Source of the DNA: an uncultured Cellvibrionales bacterium | GTDB taxonomy: Bacteria; Pseudomonadota; Gammaproteobacteria; Pseudomonadales; GM7GCV1 | Assembly (NCBI GenBank): GCA_913063225.1 | Contig: CAJXYP010000010.1 | Location: 1-64,000, forward strand | DNA length: 64,000 nucleotides | Direction of reading: 5' to 3' | Shown here: positions 26,177-29,344 of the stretch, one piece after another | How the letters are laid out: each line of letters begins with the position of its first letter | Numbering within the stretch: position 1 is the stretch's first letter | Made by a program: the position numbers and the translations under genes | The notes under the pieces: generated by a model | The model's input: the letters and a program-made list of their open reading frames with translations, nothing else | The model's database searches: none | What the model was told of the DNA's origin: nothing

Positions 26177-26286
26177 GGTGAACCCTACCGACGGATCTCC
26201 GGCACATATGAATTCTGCTACCGTTGCTCCCTTCCGGGCCTGGCGGAGTTTACAGGTTCAAATTGCGAAGGGCCGGCAGGGACACC
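26177..26286 (-). ncRNA. ffs: Signal recognition particle 4.5S RNA
   Basis: The minus strand contains the invariant SRP domain IV: GCCAGGCCCGGAAGGGAGCA, with the asymmetric loop and GGAA tetraloop bound by Ffh. Flanking arms GGTGTCCCTGCCGG and CGGTAGGGTTCACC pair to form the long helix, fixing the ends at about 26286 and 26177. The size (about 110 nt) fits the gammaproteobacterial 4.5S class. It is divergent from dnaX. Confidence 0.93.
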
Positions 26287-26489: not shown

Positions 26490-27611
26490 ATGAGTTATCA
26501 AGTTCTAGCGAGAAAATGGCGGCCTCAGTCCTTTCACGATGTAGTGGGGCAGGAGCACGTTCTAAAAGCACTAATTAATGCGCTAGAAAATCAGAGGTTG
26601 CATCACGCCTATCTCTTTACTGGCACGCGAGGCGTTGGTAAAACGACGCTGGCTCGAATCCTTGCTCGCTGTTTGAACTGTGAGACCGGTATCACTAGCC
26701 GTCCCTGTGGTGAGTGCAGCTCATGTAAGGAAATTACCGCTGGCAATTTTATAGATCTCATTGAAGTAGATGCTGCGTCTCGCACCAAGGTTGACGATAC
26801 GCGGGAACTGATGGATAACGTTCAGTACGCGCCATCAAGAGGTCGATACAAGGTCTACCTGATTGATGAAGTTCATATGCTTTCGACGCATAGTTTTAAC
26901 GCTCTGTTAAAAACCTTGGAAGAGCCGCCAGAGCATGTGAAGTTCTTATTGGCGACAACCGACCCACAAAAATTGCCGGTTACGGTTTTATCGCGTTGCC
27001 TGCAGTTCAATTTAAAAAATATGAGCGCTGCTCAAATATCAGAATATTTGGACAAGGTGTTGACCAGCGAGCAATTTACTTTTGACCAAAACAGTTTGGA
27101 GCTAATTGCCCAAGCTGCTTCTGGAAGTATGCGCGACGCTTTGAGTTTGACGGATCAAGCTATTGCGCATGGCAATGGGAATTTGGCAGAGAAAGAAGTC
27201 GCTAGCATGCTGGGTACTGTGGACCGTACTCATTTGCACGAGTTACTGGACGCCTTGGTTAAAGTTGATGGTCCGGCGCTTATCAGTACCTGTACCGAAA
27301 TAGCCAGTCACTCAGTTGATTATCAGATTCTGACGGCTCAGCTATTGAATATGATTCACGCTATAGCGGTGCATCAGCAAGTTCCGGAAGCCGCAGTTAC
27401 CAGTGTTTCTGCTGACCGCCTGCAGGTCTATGCGGATCAGTTTGAAGCAGAACAAGTGCAGCTGCTGTATCAAATGCTTTTGGTGGGTCGTCAGGATATT
27501 CAGATCGCGCCTGATCAGGAGAGCGGGTTCGAGATGTTGATGCTGCGTCTGTTGGCATTTTCGCCTCGTTCGGAAAACGCAGAAGGGGCACCCTCCGTAA
27601 AAAAGGGCTAG
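26490..27611 (+). CDS. dnaX: DNA polymerase III subunit gamma (dnaX zero-frame product)
   Basis: Clamp-loader ATPase, 373 residues in the zero frame. Walker A GTRGVGKTT begins at residue 45. The zinc-module Cys fall at residues 64, 73, 76 and 79, as in E. coli; Walker B is LIDEVHML and the sensor region TTDPQKLP. AAA+ domains I-III are complete. The zero frame stops at TAG 27609-27611, just after a slippery A AAA AAG, so this product is gamma-like. The tau-specific C-terminus is encoded in the -1 frame (27605-28369). Confidence 0.95.
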   Translation: MSYQVLARKWRPQSFHDVVGQEHVLKALINALENQRLHHAYLFTGTRGVGKTTLARILARCLNCETGITSRPCGECSSCKEITAGNFIDLIEVDAASRTKVDDTRELMDNVQYAPSRGRYKVYLIDEVHMLSTHSFNALLKTLEEPPEHVKFLLATTDPQKLPVTVLSRCLQFNLKNMSAAQISEYLDKVLTSEQFTFDQNSLELIAQAASGSMRDALSLTDQAIAHGNGNLAEKEVASMLGTVDRTHLHELLDALVKVDGPALISTCTEIASHSVDYQILTAQLLNMIHAIAVHQQVPEAAVTSVSADRLQVYADQFEAEQVQLLYQMLLVGRQDIQIAPDQESGFEMLMLRLLAFSPRSENAEGAPSVKKG

Positions 27612-27639
27612 CGCCGGCGTCCTCTAAGGGGGTACCGGC
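27583..27639 (+). promoter_or_regulatory. Programmed -1 frameshift module in dnaX
   Basis: All three parts of the E. coli dnaX frameshift signal are present. An internal Shine-Dalgarno-like AAGGGG (27583-27588) lies 10 bases before the heptamer. The slippery heptamer A AAA AAG (27599-27605) is in the correct phase (GTA AAA AAG). A hairpin at 27613-27639 starts 7 bases after it: gccgg/ccggc outer stem, cctc/gggg inner stem. The zero-frame TAG comes one codon after the heptamer. Confidence 0.85.
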
Positions 27640-28369
27640 AGAGAGTCAGACTGATACGCCCATAATAGATAGGCAGATAAGTCCTACGCATCAATCGGAA
27701 GACACTGTTGAAGGTACTACTGAAGATACTTCGGAAAGTACTTTGGTTACCTTAGTTGATCAGATAGAAGAAATCGAAGTGGTACCGGCTATTATTGAAG
27801 GGCAGGTAGCAGCCGTTGTTGAAACTCAGGTAGCCGCGGCTTTTGAATTACCGGTTACAGCTGATGTAGAAGTGCCAGTTGCATCCCTACCATCGATAGA
27901 CTCCGCAGCAGCTGTCGCACTAGACATTGAACTTGAACCTGAACTAGTGCGGCCAAAGTCTGTCCTGGTTTATAGCGCAACAGATATTCAGAATTCCGAG
28001 GACTGGATTAGTATTTTCCAGCAACTGCTGTTGGAGGGAATGTTAAAGTCAATTTGCGGTCAGTTATCTTTTCGGCAGCGAGACGCAGACTTTTTGATTT
28101 TTGATATTGACCAAGCCGCTAGTGGCGTCTTGTCTGACAAGTACCAATCGAAATTTTGTGAGCTACTCAGTGAACATCTAGGCAAGCCGCTTCAGATTAG
28201 TATTGAGTCCCAGAATAACCATAATGAATCACCAACTCGACGAGCAGAACGATTGCACCAAGAAGCGCTCGAGAACGCAGAAAAAGATTTGCTTGGATCT
28301 GAGGCTGCGCAAAAATTAACGGAAACCTTTAACGCCCGTCTTGTTGCTGGTTCGATAAGCCTTAAGTAA
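27605..28369 (+). CDS. dnaX: tau-specific C-terminal extension of DnaX (-1 frame)
   Basis: After the -1 slip, reading continues GGG CTA GCG ... without a stop to 28369, adding 254 residues for a tau of about 626. The first part is an acidic, low-complexity linker. The last 120 residues match tau domain V, which binds the polymerase alpha subunit: a folded segment around FLIFDID and LLSEHLGKPLQISIE, then a charged helix RRAERLHQEALENAEKDLL and TFNARLVAGSI. There is no ribosome-binding site for independent translation, so it must be reached by frameshifting, or an A is missing from the assembly. Confidence 0.85.
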   Translation, partial: GLAPASSKGVPAESQTDTPIIDRQISPTHQSEDTVEGTTEDTSESTLVTLVDQIEEIEVVPAIIEGQVAAVVETQVAAAFELPVTADVEVPVASLPSIDSAAAVALDIELEPELVRPKSVLVYSATDIQNSEDWISIFQQLLLEGMLKSICGQLSFRQRDADFLIFDIDQAASGVLSDKYQSKFCELLSEHLGKPLQISIESQNNHNESPTRRAERLHQEALENAEKDLLGSEAAQKLTETFNARLVAGSISLK

Positions 28370-28419: not shown

Positions 28420-28740
28420 ATGAAAGATATGCGACATCTCATGCAGCAGGCTCAGCAAATGCAGGAGAAAATGAAGCAGGCGCAAGATGAAATTAAGTCC
28501 ATCCAAGTGAAGGGTGAGTCCGGCGCCGGTATGGTTGAAGTGATTATGAACGGACGCCACGATATTGACCGGGTAAAAATTAACCCCGAATTACAGTCTG
28601 AGGATATCAAGGTACTGGAAGATCAGATTACTGCTGCCATCAATGACGCAGTGCGCAAAGTTGAAGTACAGACAAAACAGAAGATGGGCAATGTAACCGG
28701 CGGTTTGCAAATGCCCCCGGGCCTCGACCTAAACCTATAA
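28420..28740 (+). CDS. ybaB: YbaB/EbfC nucleoid-associated protein
   Basis: A 106-residue DNA-binding protein of the YbaB/EbfC family, encoded between dnaX and recR as usual. An N-terminal Met/Gln-rich helix (MRHLMQQAQQMQEKMKQAQ) is followed by the KGESGAGMVEVIMNGRHDIDRVKI core and a conserved Gly/Pro-rich tail. It binds DNA as a dimer with tweezer-like helices. Confidence 0.95.
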   Translation: MKDMRHLMQQAQQMQEKMKQAQDEIKSIQVKGESGAGMVEVIMNGRHDIDRVKINPELQSEDIKVLEDQITAAINDAVRKVEVQTKQKMGNVTGGLQMPPGLDLNL

Positions 28741-28750
28741 GAAATAAAAG

Positions 28751-29344
28751 ATGCTAAGTCCATTATTAGAATCATTAGTTAAAGCGCTTTCTGCCCTGCC
28801 GGGTATTGGCCGAAAAACTGCTCAACGATTGGCTATTCACCTAGTTAGTTTACGGCCCGAGGTAGCTAGCGAATTGAGCATGGCGCTTTCGGACGCGGTA
28901 GACCAAATCGGTAAATGCCAAAACTGCCGTAACCTAACTGAACAAGGCCTGTGTAATATTTGCGCTGATCCAAAGCGAGACGAAAAGTTACTCTGCGTAG
29001 TTGAGTCACCTATGGATGTTCTGGCGATAGAATCTGCCGGAGGCTATCGGGGGCGTTATTTTGTATTGTATGGTCGGCTCTCTCCTATCGATGGCATAGG
29101 TCCTGGCCAGCTCGGATTGCGAGATTTGGACACCTTAGTTAGTACATGTGGAATAGAAGAAGTGATATTGGCGACTAATTTAACGGTGGAGGGCGAAGCT
29201 ACGGCACATTTTATATCGGACCGCGTTAAGGCACTAGGTGGGAAGGTAAGCCGCATAGCCCACGGCGTGCCTACTGGTGGGGAACTTGAGTTTATCGATT
29301 CACAAACACTTGGTTTTGCTATCCAAGGGCGGGCTAGCTACTAA
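28751..29344 (+). CDS. recR: Recombination protein RecR
   Basis: Works with RecF and RecO to load RecA at gaps. The 197-residue protein has an N-terminal helix-hairpin-helix LPGIGRKTAQRLA, a C4 zinc finger CQNCRNLTEQGLCNIC, a Toprim domain (LCVVESPMDVLAIE to EVILATNLTVEGEATA) and a C-terminal RIAHGVPTGGELEF. The stop overlaps the rnd start (TAATG). Confidence 0.97.
   Translation: MLSPLLESLVKALSALPGIGRKTAQRLAIHLVSLRPEVASELSMALSDAVDQIGKCQNCRNLTEQGLCNICADPKRDEKLLCVVESPMDVLAIESAGGYRGRYFVLYGRLSPIDGIGPGQLGLRDLDTLVSTCGIEEVILATNLTVEGEATAHFISDRVKALGGKVSRIAHGVPTGGELEFIDSQTLGFAIQGRASY

Follow-up and report, generated by a model that had tools for sequence, protein, structure and literature searches.

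Can a bacterium leave the longer product of its dnaX gene, tau, to a shift in reading frame? Tau links the clamp loader and the polymerase, which its domain V alone could not do, and in E. coli it is needed for coupled replication. The question is raised by the dnaX gene of the window (the whole 64-kb stretch of DNA analyzed here), in which the zero frame ends almost directly past a slippery heptamer and the polymerase-binding part of tau lies in the -1 frame. The features of the locus, with those of its neighbors, are as follows.

26490..27611, + strand: dnaX zero frame, predicted gamma with domains I-III (Pfam), 373 aa followed by TAG
27583..27588, + strand: AAGGGG, predicted SD-like stimulator, 10 nt before the heptamer, from its duplex with the 16S tail
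27599..27605, + strand: slippery heptamer A AAA AAG, in phase, read in the sequence, with equal phase in the loci of two relatives (L002 and L003)
27605..28369, + strand: tau-specific tail in the -1 frame, linker and then domain V, 254 codons after the heptamer followed by TAA
27609..27611, + strand: zero-frame stop TAG ending gamma, one codon (GGC) past the heptamer
27613..27639, + strand: predicted hairpin of 5 + 5 bp with an internal loop, after a 7-nt spacer, from folding
28420..28740, + strand: downstream neighbor from the ORF list, which we take to be ybaB/ebfC-like
28751..29344, + strand: downstream neighbor from the ORF list, presumably recR-like

Pfam recognized DNA_pol3_delta2, DNAX_ATPase_lid, and DNA_pol3_gamma3 in the zero frame, which passes through six As (27599-27604) and a G (27605) to read A AAA AAG GGC TAG. 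In the -1 frame, no stop interrupts the reading from 27515 until the TAA at 28367-28369, and a product shifted by -1 is predicted to be 626 aa long. Domain V was recognized in this frame at approximately 27989-28357 (DNA_pol3_tau_5, E 2.6e-9); a PDB sequence search with the tail matched a single tau chain, 5fku_E, at a nonsignificant E of 0.26. A reversed, or two-ORF, dnaX is marked by a zero-frame stop right past the shift site and by a tau tail in the -1 frame, and this gene has both. The in-phase A AAA AAG is that of an E. coli-type cassette, but in place of the prompt -1-frame stop that yields gamma in the E. coli type, the -1 frame stays open for 254 codons. The original prediction had described this arrangement, with the heptamer in phase, AAGGGG 10 nt before it, a 7-nt spacer to the stem, a TAG one codon past the heptamer, and 254 open codons in the -1 frame, and our coordinates agree with it throughout. 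The heptamer by itself is not rare, as AAAAAAG occurs 11 times on the + strand and 5 times on the - strand of the window. Just 5' of dnaX, on the opposite strand, lies a small SRP RNA (RF00169, 65.6 bits, window positions 26182-26279, - strand).

On the basis of the evidence set out below, we consider it very probable that gamma arises from normal termination and tau from -1 ribosomal frameshifting of the E. coli type, with the wiring of the E. coli cassette inverted. Ribosomes that stay in frame would read A AAA AAG, one further codon, and the stop and would release gamma (373 aa). Pairing with the SD-like box upstream and the hairpin downstream would slow ribosomes, tRNA-Lys would re-pair one base back (AAA AAA), and reading on in the -1 frame would give tau (626 aa) with its polymerase-binding domain V. 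All tau, the subunit that couples the polymerases at the fork, would then come from programmed -1 ribosomal frameshifting. We infer that the shift takes place on the ribosome and that the box and the hairpin act in it, and what we say of shift efficiency and of the tau:gamma ratio is conditional in the same way.

Is the break in the frame real? The loss of one A from the run during sequencing or assembly would produce the same picture, as a seventh A would fuse both frames, and isolated indels in dnaX were present in other genomes that we examined (L207, L215, and L136). We compared the dnaX locus of the window's genome (L001 in G000) with those of two relatives in its genus (L002 in G002 and L003 in G001); of these three genomes, which make up the genus sample, at least G002 is a metagenome assembly. 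The reversed layout was found in all three, with differing flanks. L002 reads A AAA AAG AAC TAA and L003 reads A AAA AAG TCC TGA, such that the immediate zero-frame stops are three different codons (TAG, TAA, and TGA) at matching places, and Pfam placed tau domain V in the -1 frame of every species. Neither relative has seven As (the run is six in all three species), and both carry the zero-frame stop; seven As or a missing stop in relatives were outcomes by which the original prediction would have been refuted. An error would thus have to recur in two more genomes at the equal codon, within differing flanks and before differing stop codons, and we rejected it as an explanation, giving it next to no credence. 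Frame breaks of another kind were seen in L207 (G333) and L215 (G298), where the frame is broken upstream of the A6G run and the gene goes on in the -1 frame; these two are likely sequence errors.

The three species are far apart. Silent sites among them are near or at saturation (pS of 0.73 to 0.88 in the zero-frame part before the heptamer), yet the phase, the heptamer, and the immediate stop are kept, which argues that the layout has long been maintained. The Lys codon is exactly retained at the heptamer, an observation of little weight because 6 of the 8 other conserved Lys columns also show one codon in all three species. The linker, from the heptamer to domain V, is hardly alignable across the three species. 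Within domain V, pN/pS in the -1 frame was 0.31, 0.42, and 0.45, and the identical aligned bases gave 0.92 to 2.02 in the other two frames. These substitution ratios point to purifying selection on the -1 frame. The proposal that this frame encodes the polymerase-binding domain of tau is therefore borne out both by the Pfam match to domain V and by coding-type evolution.

Selection on domain V also bears on whether the tail is a separate protein, made by re-initiation past the gamma stop, or a decaying tail that is not made at all. The gamma stop and the -1 frame adjoin, internal GTG and TTG codons are present, and L003 also has an ATG 204 nt beyond the first base of the heptamer, all of which would suit re-initiation. 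However, the first potential starts in the -1 frame lie 144, 351, and 141 nt beyond the first base of the heptamer, differing by species; they are TTG or GTG codons with no clear SD-like box by eye, and a free domain V would be unable to link clamp loader and polymerase. The purifying selection, for its part, speaks against decay. We therefore consider a separate or unmade tail very unlikely and retain -1 frameshifting as the source of tau.

Could a second, intact dnaX supply tau instead? G000 and G002 each match dnaX strongly once and domain V once, and their weaker matches showed 35 to 42% identity with E values of 3.5e-21 or worse. This candidate was rejected, as neither G000 nor G002 yielded another match of that strength. 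In G001, contig C218 (L137) carries a second dnaX-ybaB-recR set, with a GC content of 64.8% versus 59.3%, and the dnaX of this contig branches outside the family in our tree. Because ybaB and recR are matched separately on this contig, its GC content is higher, and its dnaX lies outside the family in the tree, we read this set as probably a contamination of the G001 assembly.

We then asked whether the candidate stimulators are shared. An SD-like box about 10 nt upstream, as in an E. coli-type cassette, was found in all three species, although that of L002 is modest. The predicted duplex between the 16S tail and the 12-nt upstream window was -7.1 kcal/mol in L001, -5.6 in L002, and -11.8 in L003, values equaled by 1.9% of 539, 5.9% of 543, and 0% of in-phase positions, respectively. 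A stem after a 7-nt spacer was likewise predicted in all three species (27613-27617 with 27635-27639 in the window, with an inner stem). The 40-nt window that follows a 5-nt gap was the most stable of all tested gene windows in L001 and L002, and in L003 only 2.7% of tested windows were as stable or more so. Dinucleotide shuffles of the local fold gave z values of -0.92 (L001), -2.77 (L002), and -0.42 (L003), clear in one of the three, suggesting that the stability of the hairpin owes partly to local GC. The predicted fold of L003 also depends on the length folded, that of 50 nt differing from those of 38 and 55 nt. In further loci that contain AAAAAAG in phase, the fold ranked within 0.1 in 26 of 37 that have a -1-frame stop at the second codon and in 9 of 23 that lack it; this comparison uses the first in-phase site of each locus, includes a few genomes twice (e.g., L006/L044 and L008/L043), and treats L024 and L026, which have A10 runs, as heptamer loci. 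An Rfam search of the cassette returned nothing above the gathering score and two weak matches (E 0.87 and 4.1).

The shift could also lie in transcription. If RNA polymerase were to add an A, part of the mRNA would have an unbroken tau frame; reversed dnaX genes with 7 to 10 As have been interpreted in this way (PMC3711429), long-A reversed genes are present in the order and class of the window (L184, L187, L219, and L221), and runs below nine may slip in some bacteria (PMC1088944). The run in all three species is nevertheless only six As, shorter than both the run of about nine of the Thermus type and the runs of 7 to 10, and in a large share of genomes selection acts visibly against slippage-prone runs of nine (PMC1088944). 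Moreover, the phase of the heptamer, the SD-like box, and the hairpin would presumably have no role in slippage. We find transcriptional slippage very unlikely, if slightly less so than a separate or unmade tail, and frameshifting on the ribosome remains the reading that we prefer.

In E. coli, the condition that makes A AAA AAG slippery is a sole tRNA-Lys(UUU) (PMC5009743). A search with RF00005 found 30 tRNA genes in G000, among which ARAGORN anticodons identified one tRNA-Lys, with UUU, as in the E. coli type. There was no tRNA-Lys with CUU among these 30 genes, a set that is incomplete (tRNA-His is absent too) and may have missed a second tRNA-Lys. The sole UUU tRNA-Lys found in G000 fits the E. 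coli condition. An ARAGORN pattern search found one tRNA-Lys(UUU) in each of G002, G003, and G004 and none in G001. Together, the relatives, domain V, the selection on it, and the tRNA set support by comparison the claim of the original prediction that synthesis of tau would depend on frameshifting.

What may the arrangement have been before the roles were swapped? Genome G004 of the sister genus (g2) has the ordinary cassette, in which A AAA AAG CCTGA is read and the zero frame encodes tau; two genomes of this genus were examined, and the canonical state rests on G004 because the site falls in an N gap in G003. Relative to the cassette of G004, the heptamer-to-stop and stop-to-stem distances are each off by about one base, and the linker is too divergent for the indels behind the swap to be traced. 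In a tree of 39 gamma parts, for which the bootstrap had not settled, the genus formed one clade (100/99) inside the family (99/97). Genome G282 sits elsewhere in this tree, so that the label of reversed A6G needs two changes. Its dnaX (L132) reads A AAA AAG CCC TGA, with the heptamer at about position 2051 and domain V in the -1 frame, and a strong hairpin is absent (fold rank of 0.83). We regard G282 as a candidate for a second reversed A6G dnaX in the order, represented by a single genome without a strong hairpin.

To place these genes, we surveyed 390 genomes of the order in an even draw, in which dnaX was matched in 379 at E values up to 1e-70. The frame of the best match was shorter than 520 aa in 31 of the 379 (counted by hand), and frames of 520 aa or more were counted as not reversed, mostly on frame length alone. 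The DNA was read for 21 of the 31 short-frame loci; seven of the other ten are minus-strand loci no more than 360 bases from a contig start. Four of the 21 were reversed A6G genes (G000, G001, G002, and G282), and the other 17 comprised eight contig-end cuts, three N gaps, one tail with two Ns, three indels elsewhere, and two short tails with natural ends. Within the family of G282 (f44), 117 of 137 genomes were matched, and 21 loci were read, picked for short frames or nearness to G282. Several of them have runs of 9 to 11 As, and in L183, L184, L186, and L187 the tau tail is, by eye, off the zero frame, in the -1 or +1 frame. A sample of the class matched in 134 of 140 genomes, with frames shorter than 520 aa in 13 besides G000, of which 7 were read; in two of these, L219 (A9) and L221 (A11), it is the -1 frame that encodes tau. 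L184 and L187 of f44 both have A10. With their long A runs, these six loci resemble the published slippage type, and the long-A dnaX genes of the order and class of the window are probably transcriptional-slippage genes.

Relatives were also collected by a contig search, of which the best 80 of 429 were considered; the frame was shorter than 520 aa in four of these 80 (L032, L045, L083, and L092). L032 is the contig of G002 itself. L045, from a Cellvibrionaceae metagenome-assembled genome, has a canonical cassette and loses the zero frame 64 codons further on, likely by a sequence error. In Marinomonas pontica (L083) and Marinomonas rhodophyticola (L092), dnaX is broken at A8 and A7, respectively, and another Marinomonas (L098) has A9 in frame; the breaks in L083 and L092 may be indels or slippage genes.

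A broader proposal goes beyond the frameshift itself. This lineage may have inverted an intact E. coli-type cassette and come to make a core replisome subunit only by frameshifting. A near-even efficiency would have allowed the swap to be tolerated, and the tau:gamma ratio would now be coupled to the state of the translational apparatus. We put this forward as a tentative possibility, on balance doubtful. If it holds, and if G282 represents a separate A6G swap, the switch would be evolutionarily repeatable. Since tau is needed for coupled replication in E. coli, a core replication protein would here depend on a recoding event. There is also a warning for annotation, as such dnaX genes resemble pseudogenes or assembly errors.

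How does this gene compare with known systems? The programmed shift of prfB, another gene, differs in being +1 and autoregulatory. The prfB gene is alike in that its full-length protein requires a programmed shift beyond an in-frame stop (PMC12421855). In Thermus thermophilus, one dnaX gene likewise gives two products by recoding, but it does so by transcriptional slippage on nine As, with tau in one ORF (PMC1088944, PMC5009743). Production of the longer dnaX product by frameshifting has been described for a limited number of bacteria (PMC4066793), and the dnaX frames of Blochmannia, broken downstream of the shift site, are a different case (PMC3017870).

Reversed dnaX genes as such have been published, and in this respect the arrangement is less new than the original prediction suggested (PMC3711429, PMC5009743). 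Seventeen two-ORF dnaX genes from 12 genera need recoding for tau; 12 of the 17 have poly(A), nine of them with 10 As and three, from Chlorobi, with 9, 8, and 7, and transcriptional slippage was favored for them (PMC3711429). They share with the window's gene the early end of the zero frame and the need for a -1 event to make tau, and they differ in that 12 of 17 have poly(A), whereas the window has six As and a G with an SD-like box and a predicted hairpin. For the remaining five, the main text of that study gives no shift sites, and an A6G could be among them (PMC3711429). The reversed type is also listed in PMC5009743, which names Chlorobium phaeobacteroides as a candidate from data unpublished there. 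Its dnaX is alike in its proposed production of tau by frameshifting, with the gamma stop right after the site and E. coli-like potential stimulators (PMC5009743), and unlike in its A7 run (PMC3711429) and its phylum; the portion of PMC5009743 consulted describes no cross-species conservation for it. In the open-access literature, covered mostly through titles and the openings of abstracts, none of the reversed dnaX genes that we found reported is described as having an A6G heptamer. As far as we searched, what is new is a six-A ribosomal heptamer conserved across a genus beside a canonical sister.

The dnaX of E. coli shares with the window's gene the A AAA AAG, an SD-like box before it, and a sole tRNA-Lys, and its downstream hairpin has a predicted counterpart here; in E. 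coli the zero frame gives tau and the nearby stop in the -1 frame gives gamma, and in the window these roles are swapped (PMC5009743). The efficiency of the E. coli shift is about 50% in the literature, and it has been proposed that, close to this value, changing one nucleotide suffices to exchange what the two products do (PMC5009743). The genus of the window and its canonical sister would provide a natural before-and-after pair for this published idea of a role swap (PMC5009743).
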